From Euzebya rosea (lineage in GTDB: Bacteria; Actinomycetota; Nitriliruptoria; Euzebyales; Euzebyaceae), in assembly GCF_003073135.1 (NCBI RefSeq), contig NZ_PGDQ01000016.1:62001-126000 (forward strand): a stretch of DNA of 64,000 nt, read 5' to 3'. A program made the translations under genes and the position numbers. The notes under the pieces were generated by a model. That model ran no database searches. It was not told the origin of the DNA and saw only the letters and a list, made by a program, of their open reading frames with translations. Of this stretch, positions 17,914 to 51,400 are shown in pieces. Positions within the stretch are counted from its first letter, which is position 1, and the number at the start of each line of letters is the position of its first letter.

Positions 17914-19686
17914 TCATCCCTCAGCCATCTCCGCGAGCTCCAGCCACCGCATCTCGGCCTCGTCGAGGCGGGTCATGACGGCGTTCAGCTCCTCCGACAG
18001 CGTCTGGGCACGCGCGTAGTCATCGGCGGCGTCGGCGAGCAGCTGGTGCAGCTCGTCGCGGCGCCTCTCCAGCCGGGGGATCTCCACGCCCAGCTGGCCG
18101 AACTCGCGCTTGTCGTTGTAGGTCAGCTTGGCCGGCCGGCTGCCGGTCTCCGCATCGCTCGAGCGGGCGTCGCGCTGGGCGGCGTCGTGGGCCGCTCGCT
18201 GGGCCTTGACCGCCGCGGCCTCGGCCTTCTGTGCCTCGCGGTAGGCCGTCCATCCGCCGGGCTGGTGTCGCAGGGTCCCGTCGGGTCTGATGGCGTAGAG
18301 GTCGTCGCACACCCGATCCAGGAAGTACCGGTCGTGGCTGGCGACCAACATCGCGCCGGGCCAGCTGTCGAGGTACTGCTCCAGCACCGTGAGGGTGTCG
18401 AGGTCCAGGTCGTTGGTCGGCTCGTCCAGGATCAGCAGGTTCGGCGCATCGGCCAGGACTCGCAGGAGCTCCAGGCGACGGCGTTCCCCGCCCGACAGCT
18501 CCTCGACGTAGGCTCGCTGGGCGGGCTTGGAGAACAGGAATCGCTCCAGCAGGTCACCGGCGCTGACGACCAGGCCGTCCACCGTGGACGCCTCCTCGGC
18601 GACCTCCTTGACCGCGTCGATCACGCGGGTGCGGGGCGGCATCGGCGTGGGGTCCTGGCCGTACCAGCCGATGTGCACCGTGTCCCCGATGCGCACCGAA
18701 CCCTCGTCGGGCTCCAGCCGGCCGGCCAGCATGGCCAGCAGCGTGGACTTGCCCGAGCCGTTGGGCCCGACGAACCCCCAGCGGGCGTCCGGTGGGACCT
18801 TCAGGTCGACGTCGCGCAGGACGGTGCGGCCCTCGAAGGACTTGCCGGCGTTGTGGGCGTTGGTGACCTTCGAGCCGAGCCGCCGGGACGGCAGGTCGAT
18901 GGACAGCTCACGCTCCTCGACCTTGACCGCGGCGGCGGCGACGAGGTCGGTGGCCTTGTCCACGCGGTGCTTGGCCTTGGAGGTCCGGGCCTTGGGGCCA
19001 CGTCGCAGCCACTCGAGCTCGACCCGGGCCAAGTTGGACCGTTTCCGCGCCTCGGCCTGCTCCTGCTCCTGCCGGGCCGCACGGGCCTCGAGGTAGTCCG
19101 CGTAGGACCCGTGGTGGGTGAAGACCTGCCCCTCGGCCACCTCGATGATCCGGGTGGCCAGCCGGCCCAGGAGGTAGCGGTCGTGGGTGACGAACAGCAG
19201 GCTGCCGGACCGGGCGGTCAGCAACCCCTCGAGCCACTCGATCACGTCGGGGTCGAGGTGGTTGGTGGGCTCGTCGAGGACGAGCAGGTCGGGGTCGTCG
19301 GCCAGCACCTCGGCCAGGGCGACGCGGCGGCGCTGTCCACCGCTCAGCGTGCCGACGGGCTGGGTGATGCCGCCGAGTCCGAGGCGGTCCAGGTAGGCCT
19401 CGGCCTCCCTGGTGCCGCCCGCGGCCTCGACCGGGGTGAGGTCGGGCGTCAGGACGGGCTGCTGGTCGAGGTAGCGGACCCGAAGCCCGCCGCGGTGCAC
19501 CACGCGCCCGGAGTCGGCCGGTTCCACCTTGGCGATGATCTTCAGCAACGTGGACTTGCCCGACCCGTTGATCCCGATGACGCCGCAGCGGTCCCCGTCG
19601 TCGATGCCGACGTTGATGCCGTCCAGCGGGCGCTTCTCGGCGTAGGCCTTGGTGACCGCCTCGAGGCTGACGATGTTGGTTGCCAT
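17914..19686 (-). CDS. ABC-F family ATPase (Uup-like)
   Basis: This cytosolic protein of 590 residues has two fused ABC ATPase domains and no membrane segment, the ABC-F layout of translation factors and ribosome-protection proteins. Domain 1 has GINGSGKST, LSGGQRRRVALAEVL and LDEPTNHLD; domain 2 has GPNGSGKST, LSGGERRRLELLRVL and LDEPTNDLD. Between them lies an Arg/Lys-rich linker (residues about 210-260), which contacts tRNA in this family. A coiled-coil C-terminal tail follows (about 540-590), as in Uup. The start ATG overlaps the trpS stop, a coupling that fits a translation-linked function. Confidence 0.92.
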   Translation of the reverse strand: MATNIVSLEAVTKAYAEKRPLDGINVGIDDGDRCGVIGINGSGKSTLLKIIAKVEPADSGRVVHRGGLRVRYLDQQPVLTPDLTPVEAAGGTREAEAYLDRLGLGGITQPVGTLSGGQRRRVALAEVLADDPDLLVLDEPTNHLDPDVIEWLEGLLTARSGSLLFVTHDRYLLGRLATRIIEVAEGQVFTHHGSYADYLEARAARQEQEQAEARKRSNLARVELEWLRRGPKARTSKAKHRVDKATDLVAAAAVKVEERELSIDLPSRRLGSKVTNAHNAGKSFEGRTVLRDVDLKVPPDARWGFVGPNGSGKSTLLAMLAGRLEPDEGSVRIGDTVHIGWYGQDPTPMPPRTRVIDAVKEVAEEASTVDGLVVSAGDLLERFLFSKPAQRAYVEELSGGERRRLELLRVLADAPNLLILDEPTNDLDLDTLTVLEQYLDSWPGAMLVASHDRYFLDRVCDDLYAIRPDGTLRHQPGGWTAYREAQKAEAAAVKAQRAAHDAAQRDARSSDAETGSRPAKLTYNDKREFGQLGVEIPRLERRRDELHQLLADAADDYARAQTLSEELNAVMTRLDEAEMRWLELAEMAEG

Positions 19687-20669
19687 CAGGCGCGAGGCAG
19701 GAAGCCGACCCGGTCCCGGACGGTGGCCATGGTGGTCTCGGCGATCGCGCGGGCGCGGTCGGCCCCGATGGCCAGCAGCCGGTCGATCTCGGCGGGGTCC
19801 CTGGACAGCTCGGCGTGGCGTTCACGGGCGGGCCGGAGGAACTCGTTGACACCCTCGGCAACGGCCTTCTTGAAGTCGCCGTACATCTTGCCCTCGAACT
19901 CGGCCTCGAGGTCGGGGATGTCGCGCCCCGTCACCGCCGACAGCAGGTCGAGGAGGTTGGTCACCCCGGGCTTGTCCTCGCCCGCACGTACCTCCGACCC
20001 CGAGTCGGTGACGGCACGCATGATCTTCTTGGCGGTCGCCTTCTCGGTCTCGTCCAGCATGATCGTGCCGGCGTCGGACTCCGCGGACTTCGACATCTTG
20101 TTCGTGGGCTGCTGGAGGTCCATCACTCGCGCGCCCGCCTTCGGCATGGTCGCCTTCGGCAGGGTGAAGGTCTCCCCGAAGCGCCCGTTGAAGCGCTGCG
20201 CGACGTCGCGGGTCAGCTCGATGTGCTGGCGCTGGTCCTCGCCCACCGGCACCTGGTCGGCCTGGTACAGCAGGATGTCGGCGGCCTGCAGGACGGGGTA
20301 GGTGAACAGCCCCGCGCTGACCGACTCCTTGCCGGCCGACTTCTCCTTGAACTGCACCATCCGGTTGAGCTCGCCCATCTGGGTGCTGCACGACAGGACC
20401 CAGGCCAGCTCGCTGTGCTCGCGGACGTGGGACTGCACGAAGAGCGTCGCCACCTCGGGATCCAGGCCCGCCGCGAGGATCCAGGCGGCCAGGTCGCGGC
20501 TCTTGGTCCGCAGGACCTCGGGGTCCTTGGGGATGGTGATGGCGTGGAGGTCGACGATGCAGAAGACGTGTCCGTCCTCCTGGTCGGCCGCCCAACGGCT
20601 GATTGCCCCGATCCAGTTGCCGAGATGGACATCGCCGGTGGGCTGGATTCCCGAGAACACGCGGGGCAC
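19686..20669 (-). CDS. trpS: Tryptophanyl-tRNA synthetase
   Basis: This class I aminoacyl-tRNA synthetase charges tRNA-Trp. The 327-residue protein has the HIGH-type motif (HLGNWIGA) after SGIQPTGDV and the KMSKS loop (NKMSKSA). The GTG start at 20669 is chosen because family similarity begins there (PRVFSGIQPTG) and AAGGAG lies eight bases upstream. It is the first gene of a two-gene unit with the ABC-F ATPase. It is of interest that the window contains several extremely Trp-rich repeat proteins; nothing in the sequence shows a functional link. Confidence 0.96.
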   Translation of the reverse strand: MPRVFSGIQPTGDVHLGNWIGAISRWAADQEDGHVFCIVDLHAITIPKDPEVLRTKSRDLAAWILAAGLDPEVATLFVQSHVREHSELAWVLSCSTQMGELNRMVQFKEKSAGKESVSAGLFTYPVLQAADILLYQADQVPVGEDQRQHIELTRDVAQRFNGRFGETFTLPKATMPKAGARVMDLQQPTNKMSKSAESDAGTIMLDETEKATAKKIMRAVTDSGSEVRAGEDKPGVTNLLDLLSAVTGRDIPDLEAEFEGKMYGDFKKAVAEGVNEFLRPARERHAELSRDPAEIDRLLAIGADRARAIAETTMATVRDRVGFLPRA

Positions 20670-20762
20670 GGTCTGGCTCCTTGCTGGTGGTGAAAGGGCT
20701 GGCAGCGTTCGTGCTGCGGCCGCCGATGGTAAGGGGTCGCCCGCGGGTAGGCTGCCGCAGCG

Positions 20763-21642: not shown

Positions 21643-23127
21643 ATGAGCCGTCTGCGCATCCTCGTCGTCTCCGTCGTCTCCGTCGCCATGCTGGCGACCT
21701 CCGTCGGACCCGCCGCCGCGATCGGCCTGGGCGTCAGCATCACGCTGCCGGGCATCGACCTGTCCGTCGGCGTCGACGGCCTGGACATCGAGCTGGGGCT
21801 GGACCTGTCCGCGGAGCAGCTGGCCTGGGGTGGCAGCGGCCCGACGGCGACCATGGCCCACGTGGCCGAGGCGATCGGCGCGGACGACCTGCACGCGGAC
21901 GGCATCACGGGGGCCGGGGTCGGCATCGCGATCATCGACACCGGCGTCGCCGACGTGGCGGGCCTGGAGGACACCCTCCGAGGCCCCGACCTGTCGCTGG
22001 ACGCCCCGGTCGAGGGGCACTACGGCGTCGACGACTACGGCCACGGCACCCACCTGGCCGGCCTGATCGCCTCGGACCGTCCGGACGCCCGCGGCATCGC
22101 CCCGGACGCCACGCTGGTCTCGCTCAAGGTCGGGGCCGGCAACGGTGCGGTCGACGTCTCCCAGACCCTCGCGGCCATCGACTGGGTCGTGCAGCACCGC
22201 GACGACCACGACATCCGGGTCCTGGTCCTGGCCTACGGCACCGACGGTACGCAGGACCCGCAGCTGGACCCGCTGTCCCACGCCGTCGAGGTCGCCTGGG
22301 ACCACGGCATCGCGGTCGTGGTCGCGGTCGGCAACCACGGCGAGTCCCGCGACCCGGTGGTCAACCCGGCGACCAACCCCAACGTCATCGCCGTCGGCGC
22401 CGTCGACACCCGGGCCACGAGCACGACGCTGGACGACCGCATCCCGGCGTTCTCCGCGCCCGGCACCCCCGAGCGCCGCCCGGATGTCTTCGCACCCGGT
22501 GTGGGCATCGAATCCCTTCGCGCGGCCGGCGGCTACCTCGACCAGACCTACCCCGCTGCACGACGTGACGGCCAGCTCTTCCGCGGCAACGGCAGCTCCC
22601 AGGCCGCGGCGATCGTCGGTGGGGCGGCGGCGCTGCTGCTGCAGGCCCGGCCCGACCTGTCCCCCGACGACGTCAAGGCCGTGCTGTCCAGGAGCGCCAC
22701 CCGGCTCGACAACCTCCTGACCGGTCAGGGCGTGATCGACCTCCCCAGCGCCCTGGCCACCCCCGCGGTGCTGACCGACCAGGACCACCCCGCCTCGACC
22801 GGTACCGGGTCCCTGGAGGCTGCCCGCGGCAGCACCCACCTCGGGGAGGCCGACGACCTGCTGGCAGGCGAGGTCGACGTGTTCGGCCAGCCGTTCGACA
22901 GCGCAGCATGGGCGCAGTCCGCCACCGCCGGCACGAGCTGGCAGGACGGGGTCTGGAACGGCACCCGCTGGGTCGGCAACGACTGGGTGGACGGCCGCCT
23001 GGCCGCGGTCCCGTGGGACGCGTCCACCTGGAACGGCTGGAGCTGGCACGGGTGGTCGTGGCACGGCTGGTCGTGGCACGGGTGGTCGTGGCACGGCTGG
23101 TCGTGGCACGCCCAGGGCTGGGAATGA
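21643..23127 (+). CDS. Secreted subtilisin-like S8 protease with C-terminal WSWHG repeats
   Basis: This secreted 494-residue protein has a signal peptide (RLRILVVSVVSVAMLA, ending near AAA at residue 28), an Asp/Leu-rich pro-region and a subtilase domain. The catalytic triad is Asp99 (AIIDTGV), His137 (GHGTHLAG) and Ser319 (GNGSSQAAA, where GTSMAAP is usual), with the oxyanion Asn in AVGNHGES. A conserved TGTGSLEAARGS block then leads to a Trp-rich tail ending in five WSWHG-type units. The ATG at 21643 puts the signal peptide at the start. It is translationally coupled (ATGA) to a membrane GGDEF-EAL protein. Its substrate is unknown; processing of its own or another Trp tail is one possibility. 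Confidence 0.92.
   Translation: MSRLRILVVSVVSVAMLATSVGPAAAIGLGVSITLPGIDLSVGVDGLDIELGLDLSAEQLAWGGSGPTATMAHVAEAIGADDLHADGITGAGVGIAIIDTGVADVAGLEDTLRGPDLSLDAPVEGHYGVDDYGHGTHLAGLIASDRPDARGIAPDATLVSLKVGAGNGAVDVSQTLAAIDWVVQHRDDHDIRVLVLAYGTDGTQDPQLDPLSHAVEVAWDHGIAVVVAVGNHGESRDPVVNPATNPNVIAVGAVDTRATSTTLDDRIPAFSAPGTPERRPDVFAPGVGIESLRAAGGYLDQTYPAARRDGQLFRGNGSSQAAAIVGGAAALLLQARPDLSPDDVKAVLSRSATRLDNLLTGQGVIDLPSALATPAVLTDQDHPASTGTGSLEAARGSTHLGEADDLLAGEVDVFGQPFDSAAWAQSATAGTSWQDGVWNGTRWVGNDWVDGRLAAVPWDASTWNGWSWHGWSWHGWSWHGWSWHGWSWHAQGWE
23038..23112 (+). repeat. In-frame 15-bp array, five W-S-W-H-G units
   Basis: Five tandem 15-bp units encode WSWHG (the last WSWHA). Differences among units are synonymous (GGC/GGG, AGC/TCG) until the final codon, showing that the peptide rather than the DNA is conserved. 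Confidence 0.95.
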
Positions 23128-25571
23128 CCGTGACGGCAGCTGCCGGCTCCACCACCCCCGGCGCCGCCCGCCGGATCTGGCTGGGCTCCGCCCTCCTCGC
23201 CGCCCCCCTGCTGGCCGTCACCGCGTCGTGGGGACCGTTCACCGCGTCCTCGACCCAGCTGTGGCAGGCGGCCGTGGTCACCGCCGTCGTCGCCATCTGC
23301 GAACGGTGGGTCTCCATCACCGTCCGCACCGGGACGCAGAGCCACTCCCTGACGCTCAGCGAGGCCCCGCTGCTGATCGGCCTGTTCCTGCTGCCGGTTC
23401 CCCTCCTCGTCGGTGCCCGCGTCGTCGGCATGGTCCTGGCCAACCAGGTCCTGCGACGACAGCAGGGCTACAAGACCGCCCTCAACGTCACGCAGACCTG
23501 GACCGAGACGCTGGTCGCGGCCGGCCTGTTCGGTGCGGTCGCCGGGCTCGGCCTCGCCGTCCACGTCGAGCTGCTGGTCGTGGCCGGCATCGTGGGCGTC
23601 GTCGTCAACACCATCGGCGTGGTGTTCATGACGGTCGCGGTGTCCAGCATCGCGGGCCACCTCGTGCTCGGGCCGGCCAGGCGGGCGGTCTGGACCGGCC
23701 TCGTCCCGTCGATCACGTCGGCGCTGGTGGGCGCCACCGCCGTGGCCCTGTGGGCCGTGTCCCCCGTGCTGGTGCTGGTGCCGGCCGTCCTGTCGGTCTT
23801 GCTCACGGTCGCCTACCGGTCCTGGCTGGAGCTCGTGGACGCGAACGACGCGCACGCCCGCCTGCTGGACTTCACCAAGGCGGTCGCCGCAGCGGGTGAC
23901 CTCGACGCCACGATCGAGGCCATCGTGCGCGAGGCGCACAGCCTGCTGTCGCCTCGCCGTGTGGCGGTCCGGTTGCCGACCTCGACCGGCGAAGCCAGCG
24001 CCTGGGTGGGCGTGGACCCCGACACCGCGGTCGAGCTCGACCAGCTCCTGCAGGACCACCACGACACCTCGGGTCCCGGCGCGACGACCGGGCCGCCGGC
24101 GGACGAGGAGACGCTCTTCGTCCCCCTCGACACCGGCTGGCTCGCCGTGTCCCTGGAGCGCGACAGCATCCGTCCCCACGACCGACGGACCGTCGGCATG
24201 CTCGCCGCGCACGCCGGCGTGGTCGTGCAGAACATCCGGTCGGCGGACTCGCTGCGGGACCAAGCCGACGAGGCACGGCATCGCGCCACCCACGACGTGC
24301 TCACGGGCCTCCCCAACCGCCAGTCGTTGCTGACCGCGATCGTCGAGGCGGAGCTCGTCGGTCGGGCGTTCGGTCTGCTGCTGCTGGACCTCAACGACTT
24401 CAGGAAGGTCAACGACGCCCTCGGGCACCACGCCGGCGACCAGGTCCTGGTCGAGCTGACCCGGCGGGTCACGCCCATCCTCGACGACGTGCGGATGTTC
24501 GCGCGGATCGGCGGCGACGAGTTCGCTGCCGTCGTGGAGGGTGATGTCAGCCGGTGCACGCTCGTCGCCGAACGGCTGCACCTGCTGATCGGCCGGACCA
24601 TGACCGTCGACGGCTACGACGTGGCCACCAGCGCCAGCATCGGGGTGGCCCTCGCGCCGGAGCACGGGTCGGACCCCTCGACGTTGCTCAAGCACGCCGA
24701 CCTCGCCATGTACGGGGCCAAGCGGCGGGGCTGCGGCACCCAGGTCTACGGAACGGAGGCCGGCGGCCGTGCGCTGCGCGACCTCGAGATCAGCAGCGGC
24801 TTCCGCATGGCGCTGGACCGAGGGGAGATCGGCGTGGTCTTCCAGCCGATCATCGACCTCGACTCCGGCCGGGTCGCTGCCGTCGAGGCGTTGACCCGCT
24901 GGACGCACCCGGCGCTCGGGGTCATCCGTCCCGACGAGTTCATCGCTGCCGCAGAGCAGAACGGCATGGTGACGGAGCTGACCCGCCACGTCCTGCACGC
25001 CTCGTTGCAGTGGCAGCGGTTGTGGGCCGCTGCGGGGGTCGACCTGCAGGTCGCGGTCAACATCAGCGCCCGGTCGCTCGTCGACGACCAGCTGGCGGCG
25101 ATGGTGGCCAACGCCCTTTCCCGCCACCGTGTCCCCGCGGACCGGCTGACCCTCGAGCTGACCGAGTCCAGCGTCGTCAGCGATCCGACGATCACGATCG
25201 CAACCCTCCGCGGGCTGCGGGCGCTGGGTGTCCGGCTGGCCGTCGACGACTTCGGCACCGGGTACTCCTCGCTGTCCTACCTGCGCGAGCTGCCCGTCGA
25301 CGAAATCAAGATCGACAAGTCCTTCGTGATCCCGCTGGCCGACGAGGTCGACACCCCGCCGCTGCTGTCGGGGATCATCAACCTGTGCCGCGAGATGGGC
25401 TTCGAGCTCGTGGGCGAGGGCATCGAGAACGCCGAGGTCCAGGGCAAGCTGACCAACCTGGGCTGCTCACGCGGGCAGGGCTTCCACATCGCCCGCCCGA
25501 TGGACGGCGCAGACCTCCTGGAGTGGCAGGCCAGCTGGCGCGCCCGGCAGACCATCGACCTCACCGTCTGA
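23124..25571 (+). CDS. Membrane GGDEF-EAL protein 1 (c-di-GMP turnover)
   Basis: This 815-residue protein has an N-terminal membrane domain of seven or eight helices (about 12-235) with a signature LSEAPLLIGLFLLPVPLLVGAR followed by NQVLRRQQGYKTA. A GAF-like region (about 240-370), GGDEF (motif intact at 463-467, RIGGDEF) and EAL (588-590, VEALTRW) follow. The EAL domain keeps [28 protein letters not shown] and GEGIEN, so phosphodiesterase activity is expected; cyclase activity is also possible. Its ATG overlaps the protease stop, making a protease/c-di-GMP operon closed by a clear terminator. The membrane domain is shared with the proteins at 27289-29793 and 35570-38059. Confidence 0.93.
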   Translation: MTVTAAAGSTTPGAARRIWLGSALLAAPLLAVTASWGPFTASSTQLWQAAVVTAVVAICERWVSITVRTGTQSHSLTLSEAPLLIGLFLLPVPLLVGARVVGMVLANQVLRRQQGYKTALNVTQTWTETLVAAGLFGAVAGLGLAVHVELLVVAGIVGVVVNTIGVVFMTVAVSSIAGHLVLGPARRAVWTGLVPSITSALVGATAVALWAVSPVLVLVPAVLSVLLTVAYRSWLELVDANDAHARLLDFTKAVAAAGDLDATIEAIVREAHSLLSPRRVAVRLPTSTGEASAWVGVDPDTAVELDQLLQDHHDTSGPGATTGPPADEETLFVPLDTGWLAVSLERDSIRPHDRRTVGMLAAHAGVVVQNIRSADSLRDQADEARHRATHDVLTGLPNRQSLLTAIVEAELVGRAFGLLLLDLNDFRKVNDALGHHAGDQVLVELTRRVTPILDDVRMFARIGGDEFAAVVEGDVSRCTLVAERLHLLIGRTMTVDGYDVATSASIGVALAPEHGSDPSTLLKHADLAMYGAKRRGCGTQVYGTEAGGRALRDLEISSGFRMALDRGEIGVVFQPIIDLDSGRVAAVEALTRWTHPALGVIRPDEFIAAAEQNGMVTELTRHVLHASLQWQRLWAAAGVDLQVAVNISARSLVDDQLAAMVANALSRHRVPADRLTLELTESSVVSDPTITIATLRGLRALGVRLAVDDFGTGYSSLSYLRELPVDEIKIDKSFVIPLADEVDTPPLLSGIINLCREMGFELVGEGIENAEVQGKLTNLGCSRGQGFHIARPMDGADLLEWQASWRARQTIDLTV

Positions 25572-25619
25572 GCCCGGCCCGCGTGCAGATGCGTAGGTGC
25601 CGCACGAGCCGAAATGACC

Positions 25620-25651
25620 AGGCGACACCATCCATCGGGATGGTTTCGCCT
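25620..25651 (+). terminator. Terminator of the first protease/GGDEF-EAL operon
   Basis: AGGCGA-c-ACCATC pairs with GATGGT-t-TCGCCT around a CATCGG loop: 12 pairs with one mismatch, 48 bases after the stop codon and just before the promoter of the second copy. Confidence 0.8.
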
Positions 25652-25670
25652 CCCGCCACGGCGCACGCGC

Positions 25671-25698
25671 TCAAGGGCCGCCGGCGGGCCCCCGACAC
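25671..25698 (+). promoter_or_regulatory. Candidate FliA/WhiG-type promoter of the second protease
   Basis: TCAA (25671-25674, within GCTCAAGG), a 16-base spacer and CCCGACAC (25691-25698). The ATG at 25707 is eight bases downstream, so a leaderless message starting there is plausible and might make Met3 of the annotated frame the true start. Confidence 0.6.
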
Positions 25699-25700
25699 CC

Positions 25701-27188
25701 ATGGCGATGCTCACCTTCAGTAACATCCGCCTCGCCCGCCTGCTCCTCGTCCTGCTCGTCACCAGCGTGCTCGGGACCCTCCCCACCTCGGCCCACGCCG
25801 AGGACCTGCCCGCGCTGCCCAGCGCGGAGGAGACCGTGGCGTGGGAAGCGGAGGGCACGACCGCGACCCTCGGTCACGTCGCCGAAGCCGTCAGGGCGGA
25901 CCGGATGCACGAACGGGGCCTGACCGGTGCGGGGATCGGCGTCGCGCTGATCGACACCGGCGTGGCGCCGGTCGTCGGCCTTGCCGACGTGGTGCACGGC
26001 CCCGACATCTCGCTGGACTCCCAGGCCGAGCAGGCCCAGCACTACGACGTGTACGGCCACGGCACCCACCTGGCGGGCATCATCACGTCCGACCGCGAGG
26101 ACGCACCCGGCCTCGCCCCCGGCGCCACGCTCGTCTCGGTGAAGGTCGGCGCATACAACGGCGCGGTCGACGTGTCGCAGGTCATCGCCGGCATCGACTG
26201 GGTGGTGCAGCACAGGGAGGAGCACAACATCCGCGTCCTCGTGCTGGCCTACGGCACGGACTCGACGCAGGACCCCGCGATCGACCCGTTGTCCCACGCC
26301 GTGGAGACCGCGTGGCACAACGGCATCACGGTCGTCACGGCAGCCGGCAACGACGGACAGCTCCGTGACTCCTTGGTGAACCCCGCGACCAACCCGTGGG
26401 TCATCGCCGTCGGTGCGGTGGACACCCAGGGCACGCGACGTGTCTCCGACGACACGATCGCCACCTTCTCCTCCCCCGGGACCGCCACCCGCCGTCCCGA
26501 CGTGCTGGCGCCGGGCGTCGGAATGGTCTCGGCCCGCGTCCCCGGCGGATACCTGGACACCGCGTTCCCGCAGGCCCAGCGACCGGGTGACCTGTTTCGC
26601 GGCAACGGCACCTCGCAGGCGGCCGCCGTCGTCGGCGCCGGCGTGGCGCTCCTGCTGGAGGACGACCCGACGTTGACCCCCGACGACATCAAGGCGCGGA
26701 TCATCGCCGGCAGCAAGCCCCTGCGCCAGGAGGGGTACGAGGAGACCTGGCAGATGATGAACCTCACCCAGATCCGTACGTCGGATGCCACGGGCGACCA
26801 GGCCCATCAGGTGAGCACGGGCGTCGGCTCCCTGGAGGCTGCCCGCGGGTCCTACCACCTGACGGGCGACACCCCACTGGTGGGCGAGCAGGACATCTTC
26901 GGGATGCCGTTCGACAGCGCGACGTGGGCTGCGGGGGCCACCGCGATGGCCTCGTGGGACGGCGGGACATGGAACGGCACCGAGTGGACCGGCTGGGGCT
27001 GGGACGGCTGGGGCTGGGACACCGTGGAGTGGACCGGCACGACGTGGGACGGCTGGGGCTGGGACGGCTGGGGCTGGGACGGCTGGGGCTGGGACGGCTG
27101 GGGCTGGGACGGCTGGGGCTGGGACGGCTGGGGTTGGGACGGCTGGGGCTGGGACGGTTGGGGCTGGGACGGCACCCAATGGGACTGA
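25701..27188 (+). CDS. Secreted subtilisin-like S8 protease with C-terminal WGWDG repeats
   Basis: This 495-residue paralogue of the protease at 21643-23127 keeps the same order: signal peptide (ARLLLVLLVTSVLGTLPTSAHA), short pro-region, subtilase domain and Trp-rich tail. The triad is Asp85 (ALIDTGV), His123 (GHGTHLAG) and Ser305 (GNGTSQAAA); the oxyanion Asn is in AAGNDGQ. The block GVGSLEAARGS precedes the tail as in the first copy. The tail has ten WGWD units, eight in one perfect array; Asp replaces the His of copy 1. Start at 25701 or 25707. It is followed after 100 bases by its own GGDEF-EAL partner, which has a separate promoter candidate. Confidence 0.92.
   Translation: MAMLTFSNIRLARLLLVLLVTSVLGTLPTSAHAEDLPALPSAEETVAWEAEGTTATLGHVAEAVRADRMHERGLTGAGIGVALIDTGVAPVVGLADVVHGPDISLDSQAEQAQHYDVYGHGTHLAGIITSDREDAPGLAPGATLVSVKVGAYNGAVDVSQVIAGIDWVVQHREEHNIRVLVLAYGTDSTQDPAIDPLSHAVETAWHNGITVVTAAGNDGQLRDSLVNPATNPWVIAVGAVDTQGTRRVSDDTIATFSSPGTATRRPDVLAPGVGMVSARVPGGYLDTAFPQAQRPGDLFRGNGTSQAAAVVGAGVALLLEDDPTLTPDDIKARIIAGSKPLRQEGYEETWQMMNLTQIRTSDATGDQAHQVSTGVGSLEAARGSYHLTGDTPLVGEQDIFGMPFDSATWAAGATAMASWDGGTWNGTEWTGWGWDGWGWDTVEWTGTTWDGWGWDGWGWDGWGWDGWGWDGWGWDGWGWDGWGWDGWGWDGTQWD
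27051..27170 (+). repeat. In-frame 15-bp array, eight W-G-W-D units
   Basis: Eight consecutive 15-bp units (GGC TGG GGC TGG GAC) encode GWGWD; only two units differ and both changes are synonymous (GGC to GGT). Two further units lie just upstream, separated by TVEWTGTTWD. Near-identity suggests recent expansion by slippage or unequal crossing-over. Confidence 0.95.
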
Positions 27189-27288: not shown

Positions 27289-29793
27289 ATGCCGCAGGTC
27301 ACCACATCCAACGGACCGCCCCTCGGGGCGGTTCGTCGCGTGTGGTTGCTCACCGCCCTCGTCGCCCTTGTCAGCGCGGCGGGCACGCTCCTGCTGCCGA
27401 CCCCCCAGGTCGCCACCAGCGACCTGGTACGGGCGACGATGCTGATGGCGCTGGTCGCCGTCACGGAACGGTGGTCGATACGGGCACGACTCGGCCAGGT
27501 CTCCCACCGGTTGACGCTGTCGGAGGTCCCGTTGGTCCTCGGCGCCTTCTTCGTGGCCCCGATGCTGCTGGTCGGCGCGCGCCTCCTCGGCGGCTTCATC
27601 GGCCTCCAGGTGCTCAGGCGGCAGGAGCCGTACAAGACGGCGTACAACGTGGCGTACCTGTGGATCGAGACGCTCGTGGTCCTCGTGGTCGTCGACCTGC
27701 TCGACCCCACGTCCCTCGTCGGCGGTCCGCGGGGATCGCTGGCCATCCTGGCGATCGCCCTGTCGGTGGCCACGACCGGGGCGGTCGCGAAGGTCGGCGC
27801 CATCTCCGCCATGCAGGGACGCCTCGCCCGTGGCCTGGCCCTCCCGGGACTTCGCGACGGCATCGGCCCGTCGTTGGCCACCGCCGCGGCAACCACCATC
27901 GGGGTCGTGCTGTTCCGGACCGAGCCGACGCTGCTGTGGGCCCCGGCCGTCGTCCTCGGGGTCCTGCTGCTGGCCTACCGCTCGCACGTCAGGCTCGTCG
28001 AGGCCCAGGACCTGCAGTCCAGCCTCATCGCCATCACGCAGGGCATCACCGGGGAGGCCACACCCGACGAGACCGCCATGCTCATGGCGACCGCAACCCG
28101 GCGCATCCTCGACGCACCGATCGCCGCCATCAGCCTGGCGGACCCCGAGACGGGCAGGCGCACCTGGTACGGCGCCGACGCCGACAGCTGGACGAAGCTG
28201 GAGGAGGCCCGCCTCGCCGCAACCCGCACGCAGGAAACGGCCGCCCGCCATGCGCCCGGCGGCACGATCGCCGCCCCGGTGGACGCCGCGACCGACTCCT
28301 GGCTGGTTGTCGGCTACAGCCGCACGTCGGCCACGGGCGAAGCGGACCGCCAGACCGTCGGCATGCTCGCCAACCACGCCGCCGTGGCGCTGGCCAACGC
28401 CCACCGCGGGGCAGCCCTGCGAGCGCAGGCCGAGCAAGCAACCTTCGAGGCCACCCACGATCCGCTGACGGGGCTGGCGAACCGGGCAGCCCTGCTCGTC
28501 GCCATCGACACCGCCCTTGCCGAGGACACCGCGTTCGCCGTCCTCCTCATCGACCTCGACAACTTCAAGGAGATCAACGACGCCCTCGGCCACGCCGCCG
28601 GGGACACCGCCCTGGAAGCCATCGGGCAGCGCATGACGTCCTTCGTCGACGAGGCCCGACTGGTCTGCCGTCTCGGCGGCGACGAGTTCGCGGTCGTCCT
28701 CGACGGCGGTGAGGTGAGCGCCCGAGACCTGGCCGGCCGCATCCGCGACGCGATCGGCGAGCCGGTGCAGCTGGGCTCCTACACCCTGCAGGTCGGCTGC
28801 AGCGTCGGCATCTCCACCTATCCGCACCTCGGCCGTGACGCCGACGAGCTGATGACCCATGCCGACCTCGCCATGTACGAGGCGAAGGCACGTGGCGGAG
28901 GGGTCGCGACGTTCGGTGCCGCAGCCGGTGGCCGCGCGATGCGTCAGCTCGCCATCAGCTCCGGCTTCAGGTCCGCCCTGGGCAACGGCGACATCAACCT
29001 GGTCTTCCAGCCGCTCGTCGACCTCCAGACCACCCGCGTGGTCAGCATGGAGGCGCTGTCCCGGTGGACCCACCCGACCCTCGGACCGGTCAACCCCGAG
29101 GAGTTCGTCCGCGTGGCCGAGCAGTCCGGCCTGATCACCGACCTGACCCATCGTGTGCTCGACTCCGCCCTGTCGTGGCACCGCCGGTGGCTCGACGAGG
29201 GCGAGGACCTGCCCGTCTCGGTGAACGTCAGCGCGACGTCACTGCTGGACACCGGCCTGCCCCGCCTCGTCGCCACCACGCTGGACGCCCACGGCGTGCG
29301 TGCCGACCGGCTGACCCTCGAGCTGACCGAGTCCAGCGTGATCGGGGACCCCCAGCGCACGCTGGAGGTCCTGGCCCGCCTGCAGCGGCTGGGCGTGCGC
29401 ACCGCGATCGACGACTTCGGGACCGGGTACTCCTCCCTGGCCTACCTGGCGCAGCTGCCCGTGGACGAGGTCAAGATCGACAAGTCCTTCGTCCTCCCCA
29501 TGCTGGACGGGACCGGATCGTTGCCGCTGGTCGCCGGGATCATCCGCCTGTGCACCGAGATGGGCTTCGACATCGTCGCGGAGGGCATCGAGACCGACGA
29601 GATCCAGACGACCCTTCGCGACATGGGCTGCACCCGAGGACAGGGGTTCGGCATCGCCCGACCGATGGACCCCGACTCGGTCGTCCAGTGGGTGCGGCGG
29701 CACCACGGCCCCCGCACCCTCCACGTCGTCACGGACCCCGCTCGGCGAGGTCCGGACGTCAGCGGCTCCTGGCGGCCTGCTGCAGGGCGTTGA
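27289..29793 (+). CDS. Membrane GGDEF-EAL protein 2 (c-di-GMP turnover)
   Basis: This 834-residue paralogue of the protein at 23124-25571 is collinear with it: the GGDEF motif falls at 463-467 and EAL at 588-590 in both. The N-terminal domain has the same signature ([20 protein letters not shown] and [12 protein letters not shown]). A GAF-like region, intact RLGGDEF, and [35 protein letters not shown] and AEGIET follow, so both catalytic domains look competent. Its last 35 bases overlap the convergent acs gene. Together with the protease it forms the second copy of the duplicated pair. Confidence 0.93.
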
Positions 29794-35569: not shown

Positions 35570-38059
35570 CTACCGGGCGTGCCGCAGCGGGAGGACGGTG
35601 GGGATGCTCGGGTCCTGGCGACGAAGCAGGACGCCGACCGCCTCGGCGCTCATGGGGCGGTGCAGGTGGAAGCCCTGGCCGCTGTCGCAGCCCATTGCGG
35701 TCAGCAGGTCCAGCGCCGTCTGGTCCTCGATCCCCTCCGCCACGACGTGCAGGCGAAGGCTCTTGGCCATGCGGAGGATCGCCTCGGTGATCGCGCGGTC
35801 GTCGGCGTCCCTGGCCAGGTGGGTCACGAAGCCCCGGTCGATCTTGACCTCGTCGACGGGCAGGCCCTTGAGCTGGGCGAGGGAGGAGTAGCCGGTCCCG
35901 AAGTCGTCGATGGACACCCGCATCCCCGCGGCATCGAAGAGGGCCAGGATGCCGCTGCTGCGCTCTAGGTCGCCCATCATCTGCGACTCCGTGATCTCCA
36001 GGGTCAGCCGGTGGCCGGGGACCTCGTACTCACGGCACCGGTCGATGATGTGGCGGGCCAGCGACTCCTCCTGCATCACCACCGTGGAGAGGTTGACGGC
36101 CACGGAGATGTCGCAGCCGGCCTGGTCCCACTCGGCGGCCTGCCGGATGGCGCTGTCGACCACCCAGAGGGTCAGGGGCCGGATCAGGCCGGTCCGCTCG
36201 GCGACGTCGATGAACTGGGCTGGGGAGACGTAGCCACGGGTGGGATGCGCCCAGCGGGCGAGCGCCTCGACACCCTCGATCCGCCCGGTCGCGAGGTTGA
36301 CCTTCGGCTGGTAGGCGATCGACAGGCCGTCGTCGTCGATGGCCCGACGGAGGTCGCTGGCGAGCTCCAGTCGCTCCGTGGCCGCGCTGTCGAGGTCGCT
36401 GGTGAACCATGCGATCTCCGCCGACCCGTCGGCACCGTGCTCGACCAGGGCGTTGGTGGCCCGTCGCAGCAGCTCACCGACGTCGGTGCCGTGACGCGGT
36501 GCCGAAGCCGCGGCGAAGGAGAACCGTGCCTCGAGCTGCAGGTGGGTCCTGGTGATGGGTCCACGCAGGGACTGGCGGAGGCTGTTGATCGCCTCCCGGG
36601 CGTCGAGCCGGTGCTCCATGCCCGGCATGACCGCGGCGAAGCGGTCGGGGCTGATCCGACCGACGGTGAAGCCGTGCTCCTCGCCGAAGCGCCGAAGGCG
36701 GTCGGCGGTGGACTGGGCGACCTCGACCGACACCGTGTGTCCGAACGCGGCGTCGATCATCTCGAGGTCCAGCAGCTCGGCGACCATGACGGTGCCGGCG
36801 TCCAGGCGGGACACGGCGTCGACGAGTCCATCGAAGTTGAAGAGCTGCGTGGCCGGGTCCCGGAGCGCGGACCGTTCCAGCTCCACGGATCGGGAGCGAA
36901 GCTGGTCGACCAGGCGTGAGGTGGCCACGGCGACGCCCGCGTGGCGCGCAAGCGCGCAGGCCAGCGCGACGTCGTCGGTGTCGAACTTGGGCATCGTGCC
37001 CCGGCGGCCCTGGAGGACCAGCGCCCCCTCGACGGACTCGTGGGCGAAGCTGGCCAGCAGCAGCTGCTCGCTGAGCGGTCCGATGATGCCGTGGTGGGGG
37101 TTGCGACCTCCCGGGTCGATGGTCAGGCCATCGACGGCGCCGGCGACGAGGCGCTTGGCCTCGCTCATCGGCAGCTCCTCCGACGACAGCAGGCCCGATC
37201 CGAGGGAGTCCAGCCGCACGGCCACGTCCCCGGTGATCAGCACGATGCCGGTCTGCTTGGCGCCGGTGACCTCCGCCGCTTCCTCGAGCACGTTGGCCAG
37301 CAGGTGCTGGACGCTGGTCTGTCCCTGGATGCCCTCCATGAAGGAGTAGAGGGAGGCAACCGACCGGTGTTTCTGCGACAGCGCGTGTCGCGAGCGGTTC
37401 GTGACGATCAGCAGGCCGAGCACGCCCGCGAACGCCACGGCCGTCACCGTCTCGGCGTCCACCAGCCGCGAGGCCACGGTCGCTGCGGCCGTGGAGATGG
37501 CGAGCGTTGCCACCACCGCCACCATGGCGGGACGCAACTGGTCGGCCCTCAATCGTCCCACGGACAGCCGAATGACGAGCAGCACTGCTGCGGTGGAAAC
37601 GACCTCCGCGGCACCCATCCCGAGGATTATCCCGACGATCGTCTGACCATCCAGCAGCTCAGCGCCGTTCGAGACCCACCCGTACACGGACGCCAACACC
37701 CACACCTCGACGGCATGGGCCACGATGTTGAACCGGACCTTCTCGCTCGACCCCGCCCACCGGTAACGCACCGTCAGGATTCCGGCAAGAACGCGGGCAA
37801 TCAACGTGGACAACGGCCCCACGAAGAGTACGCCCAGCACAACGACGAGTCCCGACAGCGTGCTGTGGAAGGACTGGCCGCGCACCTCCAGGCCCAACGG
37901 CCACCACTCGGCCACCAGGAAGCCGACGAACAGCAGTGCCGCCAGCGGGATCGCGTTGGTCCCTTGTCCCGCTTGGGGGGGCAGAACCAACCAGCCCACG
38001 CATGCGAGCAAGCCCAGAGCCGCCGTGAGGCGGTCAGCGGGCGAGGGGAAGCGCTGCAT
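35570..38059 (-). CDS. Membrane EAL protein 3 with degenerate GGDEF (probable c-di-GMP phosphodiesterase)
   Basis: This 829-residue third member of the family has an N-terminal membrane domain related to those of GGDEF-EAL 1 and 2 (STLSGLVVVLGVLFVGPLSTL aligns with their LSE-PL-LG segment, followed by VRFNIVAHAVE). A GAF domain (about 230-390) follows, then a GGDEF domain whose motif has decayed to SPDRF at 470-474, and an EAL domain with the motif at 598-600. The EAL domain keeps [28 protein letters not shown] and AEGIED. It is therefore expected to hydrolyse c-di-GMP only, possibly with GTP-sensing by the dead GGDEF. It is divergent from the GATWA-peptide locus, with 159 bases between. Confidence 0.92.
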   Translation of the reverse strand: MQRFPSPADRLTAALGLLACVGWLVLPPQAGQGTNAIPLAALLFVGFLVAEWWPLGLEVRGQSFHSTLSGLVVVLGVLFVGPLSTLIARVLAGILTVRYRWAGSSEKVRFNIVAHAVEVWVLASVYGWVSNGAELLDGQTIVGIILGMGAAEVVSTAAVLLVIRLSVGRLRADQLRPAMVAVVATLAISTAAATVASRLVDAETVTAVAFAGVLGLLIVTNRSRHALSQKHRSVASLYSFMEGIQGQTSVQHLLANVLEEAAEVTGAKQTGIVLITGDVAVRLDSLGSGLLSSEELPMSEAKRLVAGAVDGLTIDPGGRNPHHGIIGPLSEQLLLASFAHESVEGALVLQGRRGTMPKFDTDDVALACALARHAGVAVATSRLVDQLRSRSVELERSALRDPATQLFNFDGLVDAVSRLDAGTVMVAELLDLEMIDAAFGHTVSVEVAQSTADRLRRFGEEHGFTVGRISPDRFAAVMPGMEHRLDAREAINSLRQSLRGPITRTHLQLEARFSFAAASAPRHGTDVGELLRRATNALVEHGADGSAEIAWFTSDLDSAATERLELASDLRRAIDDDGLSIAYQPKVNLATGRIEGVEALARWAHPTRGYVSPAQFIDVAERTGLIRPLTLWVVDSAIRQAAEWDQAGCDISVAVNLSTVVMQEESLARHIIDRCREYEVPGHRLTLEITESQMMGDLERSSGILALFDAAGMRVSIDDFGTGYSSLAQLKGLPVDEVKIDRGFVTHLARDADDRAITEAILRMAKSLRLHVVAEGIEDQTALDLLTAMGCDSGQGFHLHRPMSAEAVGVLLRRQDPSIPTVLPLRHAR

Positions 38060-38218: not shown

Positions 38219-38329
38219 ATGACTCGCAAGACCGATGGTGCAACCTGGGCTGGCGCAACCTGGGCTGGAGCCACTTGGGCTGGAGCCACTTGGGCTGGAG
38301 CCACTTGGGCTGGGGCCACCTGGGCCTAG
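38219..38329 (+). CDS. 36-residue peptide made of six GATWA repeats
   Basis: The peptide is MTRKTD followed by six GATWA units and a TAG directly after the last. GGAAGGA (38206-38212) lies six bases before the ATG. The six 15-bp units differ at Gly, Ala, Thr and last Ala codons only in third positions (GGT/GGC/GGA/GGG, GCA/GCC, ACC/ACT, GCT/GCC), so every difference is synonymous, strong evidence that this frame is translated and under selection. I know no characterised homologue. Read as A-T-W-A-G it fits the A-x-L-x-x pattern of pentapeptide-repeat helices with Trp at the central position. It has no signal peptide. It is divergent from EAL protein 3 and shares period and Trp richness with the protease tails. 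Confidence 0.85.
   Translation: MTRKTDGATWAGATWAGATWAGATWAGATWAGATWA
38219..38329 (+). repeat. 15-bp array encoding GATWA
   Basis: Six tandem 15-bp units occupy 38237-38326. The array keeps several frames open on both strands, so short overlapping frames here should not be taken as genes. Confidence 0.9.
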
Positions 38330-38416: not shown

Positions 38417-38539
38417 GTGTCCGTGATGATTGACGAACGCGTTGCTGGCGGCCGACCCACCCGGCCGGTCAAGTACGAGATCCGCCGCCCGGCCTTCGGC
38501 CGAGTGTTCAGCCTGGTGACCACGCTGCTCGCGAAGTAG
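38417..38539 (+). CDS. 40-residue basic peptide downstream of the GATWA gene
   Basis: GTG start at 38417 with AAGAAGG seven bases upstream, TAG at 38537-38539. The product is polar and basic in the middle (RVAGGRPTRPVKYEIRRPAFG) with a short hydrophobic, possibly amphipathic end (FSLVTTLLAK). No homologue is recognised. Its place 87 bases after the GATWA peptide, without a promoter-like sequence, suggests one transcript. It could be a membrane-binding partner, a processing or export determinant, or unrelated. Coding status rests on the ribosome binding site and context. Confidence 0.6.
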   Translation: MSVMIDERVAGGRPTRPVKYEIRRPAFGRVFSLVTTLLAK

Positions 38540-48402: not shown

Positions 48403-51400
48403 ATGCGCCACCGTCCGTTCGCCGTCCTCGGCGTCGTCCTCCTGCTCGTCGTCGGGCTGCTCGGCACACCGGTGCTGGGACAACCCGGTGACGTCGTCGC
48501 CCTGCAACGCGTGGCGGCAGGCGACCGCATCGGGACGGCGGTGGCGGTGTCGCAGCGGTTCTTCCCCACCGCGGACCACGTGGTGCTCGCTCGCGCCGAC
48601 GGATTCGCCGATGCCCTGGCCGGCTCGCCCCTGGCCGGGCTCCGGGGCGCACCGGTGCTGCTGACCACCCCCAGCGCCCTGCCGACCGCGGTGGGTGAGG
48701 AGATCGCGAGGCTCGGAGCCACGGCGGCCACGATCCTCGGTGGCGAGGCTGCCGTCGGCGAGGCCGTGGCCGACCAGCTGCGGGCGGCCGGCCTGACGGT
48801 GGAGCGAGTCAGCGGTCCCGACCGGTTCGCCACCGCGGCGGCGGTGGCGACGGCCACCGGCGCCACGCCCGGCGGACGCGTCATCGTCGCCCTGGGCACC
48901 CACCCCGACGCCGACCGCGCATGGCCCGATGCCCTGTCGGCGGCCAACCTGGCGGTCGACGGCACGCCGGTCCTGCTGACCGCCCCGGACCTGCTGCCAG
49001 CGGCGACGCGGTCGGCCATCGCCGACCTCGCCCCGTCGGAGATCGTGATCGTGGGCGGTGAGCTCGCCGTCGGGCCGACGGTGGAAGCGGAGCTGACGGC
49101 GACCGGTGCCGGAGTCACGCGTGTCGCCGGCGACTCTCGCTACACGACCGCCCTGGCCGCCGCCGACGAGGCACTGGACACAACGGGGACCCGCGGGGCC
49201 ACCGACGTCCCCCGGACCGTCGTGTTCACCACCGCCGAGGCCTACCCGGACGCCCTGGCCTCCGGGGCCCTGCTGCCGTACCTGCCGGCGGTCCTGGTCC
49301 TGGTCCCGACCGAGACACTGGACGAGTCCGTCCGGCGGTGGCTCGTGGGTCGGGCGGGCCAGTTCGACGAGGCCTACGTGATCGGCGGCACGGCCGCGGT
49401 CAGCGAAACCACGTTCGACGCGATCCAGGCCGCGCTCGGCGCGGACCCCGACCCCGACCCGACCACGGACCCGGCGCCCACGCCCTCGCCCTCGCCCACC
49501 GACGGTGGCCAGCCGACCCTCCCCGTGTCGCCCGGCGGCCCGGTGCCCGTGCCGACCCCGACCGACTCCGGTTCCCCCACCCCCACCGAGACCCAGGCGC
49601 CCGACCCCGATCCCACCCCGACCGACACCGAGACGCCCGAACCCGACCCCACCCCGACCGACACCGAGACGCCCGAACCCGACCCCACCCCGACCGAGAC
49701 CGAGACCGAGACCCCGGATCCCGTCACCGGGCCCACGCGCTTCACCGATCTCCTCGACGCGCTTGCGCCGCTGTACGTCGGCGACGATGCCGTGCAGGTC
49801 GGACTCGATCCCTCCCTGCTGGACCCCGCCCGTACCGCGGGCCTGCGGGGTCGGGTACTGGATCGCGACGGCCAACCCCTCCCCGGCGCGCGTGTGGACC
49901 TGCTCGGCCATGCCGAGCTCGGCCACACCACGTCCCAGCCCGACGGGACGTGGACCATGGCCGTGGCCGGTGGGCAGGTGTTGACCGCGACCGTGACGCT
50001 CGAGGGACATGTCCCGGTGCAGCGCACGACGACCGTTCCGTGGGGCGACATCGCGACGCTTCCCGACGTCGTGCTGATGCCCTACGACGACCGCAGCACC
50101 ACGATCGCCCTGCCGGTCGACGGTCCGACAGGGCACGTGGGATCCACGCAGACCGACGAGGACGGGACCCGTGCCGCGGGCCTGCTGTTCCGCGACGGGA
50201 CGACTGCAACCATGACCCTCCCGGGCGGTAGCACCGAACCGCTGTCGTCCATGACCGTCCGTGCGACGGAGCTGACCGTCGGCAGCGTCGGCCCCCTCGC
50301 GATGCCGGGCGAGCTGCCGCCCGGCTCGCTCTACACCTACGCCGTCGAGCTGAGCGTCGACGAAGCCGTCGCTGCCGGCGCCGTCCGCGTGGACTTCTCC
50401 CAGCACGTCGCCCTGCACGTCGACAACTTCCTCGGCTTCCCGGTTGGTTCGGAGGTACCGGTCGGCGTGTACGACAGCGACACCGCGTCGTGGCTGCCGA
50501 CCCCCGAACCGGGGATCGTCCTCGCCGTCGTGGGCGACGACGGCGGAGTCGCCCGGCTCGACATCGACGGCGACGGTGACGCCGACGCCGACGACGACGC
50601 ACTCGCCTCGTCGCTGGGCATCGACGAGGACGAACGAGTCCACCTGGCAGGCCGAGCATCCGTGCTGCCGTCGTCGTTCTCACGGGTCCGCATCACCCAC
50701 TTCACCCCGTACGACCTCAACTATCCCCAGGACGAGGACGACGAGGACGACGAGGAGGAGGAACCCGAGGACGACGAGGACGAGGAGGACGAGGATCCCT
50801 GCGACGAGGCCGCGTCCTCGATGATCGTCTGCGCCAGCCGGTCCCTCGTCGAGTGGATCGACCTCCCGGGAACCTTCCCGTTCTTCCGCGACTCCCAGGA
50901 TGCCGTCGGTCACGTGCGCAGCCGATCGTTGACCATCCCGCTCACCGGACCCACCGTCTCCCCCGGAACCGACGCAGTCGAGGTCGTCGTCCAGGTCGCC
51001 GGCCAGCGACACGTCCACGTGGCCGAGGCCCCCGGACCCGAGCGGTCGTGGGAGTTCGTGTGGGACGGCCGCGACCTGTTCGGCCGCCAGGTCGTCGGCA
51101 GCGTGCCCGTCACGGTGACGCACTCGACCATGACGTCCTCGACCTACGCCACGGGGGCGTTCGGTGCACCGCCGACCACGGCCTCCACCAGCACCGGGGT
51201 GGACACCCGAGAGCCCACTTCGAGAACGCGCACGTGGACCTCGACCCTGGACGGCCTGCCGCGACCGCTCGACGACACCGTGGGTGGGTGGAGCCCCTGG
51301 ATGCACCATCGCTACGACCCGGTCGCACGACGCCTGCGTCACGGCGACGGGACCTCTCGCACGACCGACGCGGTCGACGCGTGGGCCCACCTGTGGCGCG

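Follow-up and report, generated by a model that had tools for sequence, protein, structure and literature searches.

The LapD/LapG system combines a cyclic di-GMP (c-di-GMP) receptor with a periplasmic protease; LapG is a cysteine protease, and control is exerted inside-out by a degenerate GGDEF-EAL protein. A possible parallel is found in a 64,000-nucleotide stretch of the Euzebya rosea genome (RefSeq assembly GCF_003073135.1, contig NZ_PGDQ01000016.1, positions 62,001–126,000 of the forward strand; hereafter the window). Two S8 subtilase genes of the window each end in a 15-bp tandem repeat that encodes tryptophan (Trp) pentapeptides, and each is followed by a gene for a membrane protein with GGDEF and EAL domains. 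As in LapD/LapG, a membrane GGDEF-EAL protein would be functionally tied to an extracytoplasmic protease. Unlike in LapD/LapG, the protease of the window pair is a serine enzyme that carries a repeat tail, the GGDEF and EAL motifs are intact, and a version with a kinase output exists. The analysis suggests that the tailed S8 protease and the next gene form an undescribed protease-and-receptor signalling pair and are not simply the site of an unstable DNA repeat.

Other known families also resemble parts of this pair. Pentapeptide-repeat (Rfr) proteins such as Qnr (PF00805/PF13576) carry Leu or Phe at the centre of an A(D/N)LXX unit and form a right-handed, four-sided β-helix with about 20 residues per turn. 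The Trp-pentad tails share the five-residue tandem repeat but place Trp at the centre instead of Leu or Phe, and the solenoid predicted for one of them by AlphaFold2 (AF2) is three-sided with about 15 residues per turn. MASE9 and other MASE sensors have a multi-pass N-terminal domain ahead of a GGDEF-EAL or kinase output, as do the partner receptors described here, and no operon link of these sensors to a subtilase was found in the literature searched. Most MASE-type membrane sensors have, to our knowledge, no known input. The nearest named NCBIfam model for the window proteases is the mycosin of the type VII secretion system (TIGR03921), with which they have the S8 catalytic domain, the catalytic triad and the signal peptide in common, whereas the Trp-pentad tail and the receptor gene as partner set them apart. 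Membership in the mycosin family was rejected on scores of 130.9 and 127 bits against a cut-off of 278.75; type VII secretion genes were not searched for. An assignment to anti-phage defence was also set aside; PADLOC matched the window proteases to generic subtilase and IetS models and the window receptors to none; one kinase partner matched an M43B-candidate.

Each component is thus of a known kind (S8 protease, MASE-like sensor, GGDEF-EAL or kinase output, pentapeptide-like repeat), and the combination was not found in the open-access papers searched, among which no paper on the Trp-pentad tail or on the S8–receptor pair was recognized by its title or the opening of its abstract. Another tryptophan-rich C-terminal domain, PF07483 of Synechocystis, is mentioned in PMC2605481.

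A tailed S8 subtilase subfamily and its partner genes

S8 subtilase #1 (21643..23127, plus strand; open frame from 21592) consists of a Sec-like signal peptide, a catalytic domain (Pfam Peptidase_S8, 1.3e-39) and a Trp-pentad tail. Its stop codon overlaps the ATG of membrane receptor #1 (23124..25571, plus strand) in a shared ATGA. S8 subtilase #2 (25701..27188, plus strand; open frame from 25614; Peptidase_S8, 3.8e-37) contains a signal peptide, a catalytic domain modelled by AF2 mostly at a pLDDT above 90 and a Trp-pentad tail (26979..27185), and it precedes membrane receptor #2 (27289..29793, plus strand). Both receptors combine a multi-transmembrane N-domain with GGDEF and EAL domains (Pfam) whose motifs are intact in the translations. 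Their N-domains match the hidden Markov model (HMM) of this domain at 7.6e-54 and 1.6e-59, respectively, values obtained with a model partly trained on these two receptors.

A pattern scan of a species genome collection matched at least 120 stretches. Among the matches listed, at least 24 Trp arrays are linked to an S8 protein; those with titles come from Frankiales, Dactylosporangium, Acidothermus, Acidimicrobiia/Acidimicrobiales, Thermoleophilia, Blastococcus, Euzebyaceae and one Chloroflexi metagenome-assembled genome. Many of the matches listed look non-coding. The subfamily was delimited by a search of 396 sampled Actinomycetota genomes with an alignment (A1) of 15 seeds that contained catalytic domains only. 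At E 1e-50 or better, 48 of the 396 genomes contain a member (70 rows). Sixty regions were taken, which cover 64 of the 70 rows, the other six belonging to the window's own genus. These regions provided 64 S8 frames, 59 of which extend at least 60 residues past the catalytic domain. Loci L227–L256 duplicate L257–L316 and were excluded from the neighbour, N-terminus alignment and tail counts.

Trp recurs with a period of five residues (two or more W-4x-W-4x-W) in 54 of the 59 complete tails and in none of 40 control proteins, which are other S8 genes from 10 genomes carrying the subfamily. This peptide pattern is beyond chance. The five remaining tails contain a single Trp (L270), are cut by a contig end (L294) or show interrupted WSRSSW-like pairs (three tails in L307 and L308). 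Over the 57 tails that have three or more Trp pentads (the other two of the 59 were dropped), the median number per tail is 14 and the maximum is 37. The unit is broader than W-x-G-x-x, with Gly at position +2 in 52% of the pentads, and arrays of WSSSS, WSAAS, WARAR and the like also occur; unit sequence and unit number vary widely across the phylum. A conserved linker (G.GSLE..RG and GE.DIFG) precedes the array. The catalytic triad is retained in all members with a letter at the respective position (D and H in 35/35 and S in 36/36 of 37 aligned Peptidase_S8 sequences). By a crude rule, 16 of 22 members have a signal-bearing N-terminus, and that of S8 subtilase #1 is signal-like. On this sequence evidence, each array is the C-terminal Trp-pentad tail of a protease from a single, predicted secreted S8 subtilase subfamily. 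Five tailed subtilases (L101, L174, L190, L264 and L267) also have a short G-[LV]-[ST]-W-[DG]-like motif just ahead of the signal sequence.

The downstream gene was analysed for the 51 frames whose tail is complete and whose downstream sequence reaches 1.5 kb or more. Neighbours were counted by domain coordinates, since the open frames of the partners extend into the S8 gene. A receptor N-domain starts within 600 nt downstream on the same strand in 42 of the 51 S8 genes and in 0 of 40 controls. When a GGDEF-EAL protein or a histidine kinase within 3.5 kb is accepted in addition to the N-domain within 600 nt, the count is 46 of 51 versus 2 of 40, the control neighbours comprising no receptor domain, two GGDEF-EAL genes and no kinase. 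Fisher's test for the differences between the subfamily and the control S8 genes gives about 1e-17. In three of the 46 partnered cases, another tailed protease stands between the protease and the partner. The distance from the S8 stop to the partner start (55 pairs) has a median of 6 nt, is at most 30 nt in 42 pairs and is a 4-nt overlap in 14; these gaps are minima, since the candidate start nearest the stop was chosen. Among the pattern-scan matches listed, 13 of 24 S8 frames have a GGDEF-EAL gene in the stretch taken, many of these stretches ending near the S8 gene, and a kinase gene lies next to the S8 gene in L104 and L143. All 10 scanned partners without GGDEF-EAL are HisKA+HATPase kinases (Pfam).

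HHalign joins the N-termini of the GGDEF-EAL partners (35) and the kinase partners (19) over 235 columns at a probability of 100 (E = 1.4e-42), and the most similar pair shares 53% identity. By this alignment, the GGDEF-EAL and kinase partners are one receptor family with exchanged outputs. The N-domain mostly contains 6–8 hydrophobic segments (crude hydropathy count), and residues Glu60, Lys116 and Asn120 do not vary across a 17-member alignment. MASE9 (PF20972) is the nearest Pfam model: one of 10 kinase partners scores above the 24.3-bit cut-off and three more reach E 0.002 or better, while none of 10 GGDEF-EAL N-termini passes the cut-off and two match weakly (E = 0.0044 and 0.19). Window receptor #1 matches MASE9 at E 0.19, and receptor #2 gives no match. 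The N-domain was found in 74 of the 396 genomes (E 1e-15), with six copies in the window genome, and a conserved partner protease with a regular aromatic tail represents a concrete, testable candidate input for this receptor family.

Tail fold, unit identity and unit number

A profile of 14 tails was compared with solved structures. The top matches are Qnr, QnrB1 and an RFR-domain pentapeptide-repeat structure (E = 4e-4 to 0.14), and the repeated Trp aligns mostly over Leu, Phe or Trp positions of the Qnr repeats. The cut-off of PF13576 (Pentapeptide_3) is passed by the L119 and L144 tails and not by four others tested, including a window tail; at E 0.1, PF13576 matches three of the 14 tails and PF00805 two. 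AF2 models a tail with 16 Trp residues as a β-solenoid whose strands recur about every 15 residues (core pLDDT 75–82). Foldseek returned no structure match to the predicted tail at E 0.001 or better. VIA-align ranks bactofilin first, with root-mean-square deviation values of 2.7 and 2.0 Å over 95 and 92 residues and Z scores of 11.9 and 11.5; in this listing, the non-appearance of a family is uninformative and, for repeats, a match may mean only a common arrangement. Bactofilins are three-sided β-helices. The predicted tail is alike in shape but only 2–3% identical to bactofilin in the alignments. The tail reads as a Trp-centred relative of the pentapeptide repeats with a tentative solenoid fold.

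An earlier note on this DNA had described both window arrays at the codon level, and its description holds. The WSWHG array (23038..23112) consists of five contiguous, in-frame 15-bp units (starts at 23038, 23053, 23068, 23083 and 23098) at the C-terminal end of S8 subtilase #1. Ser is encoded by AGC in unit 1 and by TCG in units 2–5, Gly alternates between GGG and GGC, and all changes are synonymous except for the final codon, GCC (Ala). The WGWDG array comprises eight contiguous, in-frame units (27054–27173) at the C-terminal end of S8 subtilase #2 and varies synonymously at two places, with GGT in unit 6 and in unit 7; upstream of it lie one further complete WGWDG unit at 26994 and then a WGWDT unit.

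Unit identity was compared with a codon-usage null (33 window frames chosen by a GC-position rule, 18881 codons, 5000 simulations). The mean pairwise identity of the WSWHG units is 0.853 versus 0.829 expected (fraction as high, 0.27), and that of the first four units is 0.856 versus 0.856 expected (fraction as high, 0.50). The WGWDG units show a modest excess, with 0.967 versus 0.910 expected (fraction as high, 0.0052). The unit identity of the WSWHG array is what the single Trp codon and a strong codon bias give. Because Trp has one codon and GGC and GAC dominate the genome, DNA identity alone says little on recent duplication. Codon bias was rejected as the sole answer, as it accounts for the unit identity of the WSWHG array but for neither the interspecies nor the phylum-wide conservation.

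Copy number was compared using one close orthologue per protease from a congeneric genome of another species (G001). In G001, the orthologues of both window proteases lie in one cluster with a third protease–receptor pair between them. The tail alignments between the window and G001 (86 and 99 columns) are gap-free with equal unit numbers for both arrays. Fourfold-degenerate codons differ by 32% and 43% in the protease bodies and by 36% in both tails. The 27 codons of the WSWHG array show six codon differences and no residue change, and the 63 codons of the WGWDG region show seven synonymous changes and one replacement. Residue and codon counts were used for WSWHG instead of NG86, since Ser switches between TCG and AGC pass via other residues and would produce false replacements. 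The gap-free tails, the equal unit numbers and the deep synonymous divergence indicate that the arrays predate the species split and diverge codon by codon. The earlier note had proposed selection on the peptide, which these counts support, together with ongoing expansion and contraction that would make copy number vary. The latter claim finds no support for the two window arrays: unit number, which differs between close relatives in contingency (phase-variable) repeats, is the same for each array in the two species compared. In G001 (L078 and L079), three protease–receptor pairs follow one another, and at another place three proteases occur with two receptors; the pair seems to be duplicated as a unit.

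Trp pentads are present elsewhere in the window genome, in a third protease copy on contig C4 (WNGWG units) and in two miniproteins of five-residue Trp rhythm. One miniprotein, MTRKTDGA(TWAGA)n ending in TWA, has 36 residues and is encoded in the window (38219..38329, plus strand) without a protease, divergent from a third receptor-type GGDEF-EAL gene (35570..38059, minus strand). This receptor gene is assigned by tblastn and HMM relatives, and its N-domain, which was outside the training set, matches the HMM at 2.2e-24. The miniprotein has six Trp residues in the window genome versus five in its G001 orthologue, which consists of SWAGA units; in this relative of the window arrays the number does vary between species. 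ASWAG is retained in five of five units of the orthologue with five different DNA spellings, and the 25 nt upstream, which include a GGAAGGA sequence resembling a ribosome-binding site, are identical in the two genomes. The other miniprotein consists of at least 10 VNWAG units, and contigs C4 and C7 (L075 and L076) both terminate inside its 15-bp array. Its G001 counterpart has 12 Trp residues and is bordered by relatives of the genes found next to the C4 and C7 ends, one of which is a GGDEF-EAL gene. The concern of the earlier note that such arrays may be misassembled is therefore justified in kind, but it does not extend to the window arrays, which lie within one contig (75 and 120 bp).

Four of the five Trp-pentad genes found in the window genome adjoin one of the six receptor genes. 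Both miniproteins are among the four, and each sits next to a receptor-type GGDEF-EAL gene. This genome-wide repeat family and its pairing with receptor genes go beyond the earlier note. Two further arrays of the genome were rejected, one on contig C17, where the expected reading contains no frame with a Trp array, and one on C21 that lies opposite a better-scoring frame. A second small conserved open reading frame (ORF) with an IDERVxGGRPxR motif accompanies both Trp miniproteins, downstream of one and upstream of the other. It occurs in the window at 38417..38539 (plus strand; ..MIDERVAGGRPTRP..), downstream of the 36-residue miniprotein, and a relative lies upstream of the VNWAG miniprotein. 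The motif was located in L076 (6161, plus strand) and L081 (5452, minus strand), and L222 is a further locus of this ORF.

A candidate protease–receptor module and competing explanations

We propose that the secreted Trp-pentad S8 subtilase and the directly following gene constitute a two-gene signalling module. The second gene would encode a membrane protein that joins a shared MASE9-like multi-pass N-domain to an exchangeable cytoplasmic output, either GGDEF-EAL, as in the window, for c-di-GMP turnover, or HisKA-HATPase. The tail would fold outside the membrane as a Trp-stacked, pentapeptide-repeat-like β-solenoid, and the receptor domain would read the tail or a free miniprotein. Proteolysis of the tail or of another surface protein could then alter receptor contact and thereby set the c-di-GMP or kinase output. 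We give a probability of roughly 0.55 to the view that the pair is a secreted protease with its own membrane receptor and that the element recognized by this receptor is the Trp-pentad tail. The evidence consists of the retained triad, the tail periodicity, the conserved adjacency, the common receptor domain with swapped output, the peptide conservation and the miniproteins beside receptors. Under this favoured reading the fold is periodic, and therefore the DNA repeat would be a consequence of the fold and no contingency locus. The window arrays suggest that protein structure, rather than variation, can be what a 15-bp tandem repeat is retained for, at a constant unit number. A broader proposal is advanced only tentatively: Trp-centred pentapeptide-repeat peptides, mostly on a secreted subtilase but at times free-standing, might be the cognate ligands of MASE9-like receptors with c-di-GMP or histidine-kinase outputs across Actinomycetota and so define an undescribed sensory class.

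Several observations weigh against the proposed module. The contact between tail and receptor is inferred. All 15 seeds of the S8 search came from tailed proteins, although only their catalytic domains were used, and the control S8 proteins are the highest entries of a ranked list, not a random draw. The N-domain model was trained on counted loci, which makes the 42 of 51 partly a matter of construction, while the Pfam domain calls and the control are independent of it. Five of the 51 S8 genes lack a downstream partner (L263, L270, which is apparently tail-less, L306, L307 and L308), although L307 and L308 have a GGDEF-EAL gene just upstream instead. The C4 paralogue in the window genome and the C10 protease in genome G002 are likewise without an adjacent partner. 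On the receptor side, 35 of 40 loci without a listed S8 gene show no convincing Trp array within the stretch taken, some stretches being cut by contig ends, and a local partner is therefore not always needed by the receptor; the remaining five contain a tailed S8 gene below the threshold (L375, L390 and L395) or a truncated or isolated array (L376 and L384). Output type is not clearly reflected in the type of tail, as Gly at W+2 is not clearly different in GGDEF-paired and kinase-paired tails (p = 0.086). The window tail matches no Pfam pentapeptide model and is of low confidence within the full protein (AF2 pLDDT 37–53). No signal-like segment is found at the N-termini of the miniprotein sequences, of which the window one was scanned, a poor fit to a secreted ligand.

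In the main competing explanation, the tail would anchor the protease at the cell surface as a Trp ladder bound to wall glycan, an S-layer or matrix polysaccharide, and the signalling gene would be linked to the protease via matrix regulation and not via sensing of the tail. C-terminal aromatic repeats on a secreted enzyme and the β-solenoid model of the tail are in line with such a role, and GGDEF-EAL proteins are typical of biofilm control. An anchor leaves unexplained, however, why one receptor domain carries two outputs and why the pairing is tight, and the miniproteins, which stand beside the same receptor type without a signal peptide, cannot anchor a protease. Anchoring is accordingly considered unlikely, though it retains more weight than any of the explanations that follow. 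A C-terminal pro-region, in which the tail would be an intramolecular folding or inhibitory segment and the operon partner incidental, is improbable: pro-regions are common in subtilases and the conserved linker ahead of the array would suit one, but repeat-only miniproteins occur without a protease and the adjacency to one receptor family far exceeds that of the controls.

The reading of the earlier note, in which 15-bp slippage rapidly alters the length of the tail and makes the protease differ from strain to strain, draws on the excess similarity of the WGWDG units over codon usage, on the miniprotein whose unit number differs between species and on the VNWAG array that breaks the assembly. 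It conflicts with the equal unit numbers and gap-free tails of two species at 32–43% fourfold divergence and with the WSWHG units, whose identity fits the codon null; the units drift synonymously and are not replaced. Such a contingency array is highly improbable, slightly more so than a pro-region. The least credible explanation by far, with hardly any probability, is a functionless low-complexity by-product of GC-rich coding sequence. Many pattern-scan matches place 15-bp Trp/Gly arrays outside plausible genes as well, but synonymous differences greatly outnumber replacements in the window arrays, and the tail is subfamily-wide and absent from the controls. The protease–receptor module remains the preferred reading.

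Neighbouring features of the window

A trpS-like gene (19686–20693, minus strand), which we take from its sequence to encode tryptophanyl-tRNA synthetase, is found close to the Trp-rich proteases in each of the four genomes examined from the genus (the window, L078, L082 and L084). The 60 phylum regions gave no match to it at E 1e-10, and the adjacency is at the genus level only. Two further repetitive stretches are located downstream in the window. Positions 49575–49706 contain a 36-bp tandem repeat of 3.7 copies with 91% matches, and positions 50729–50807 are rich in GAC/GAG repeats with multiple overlapping periods.

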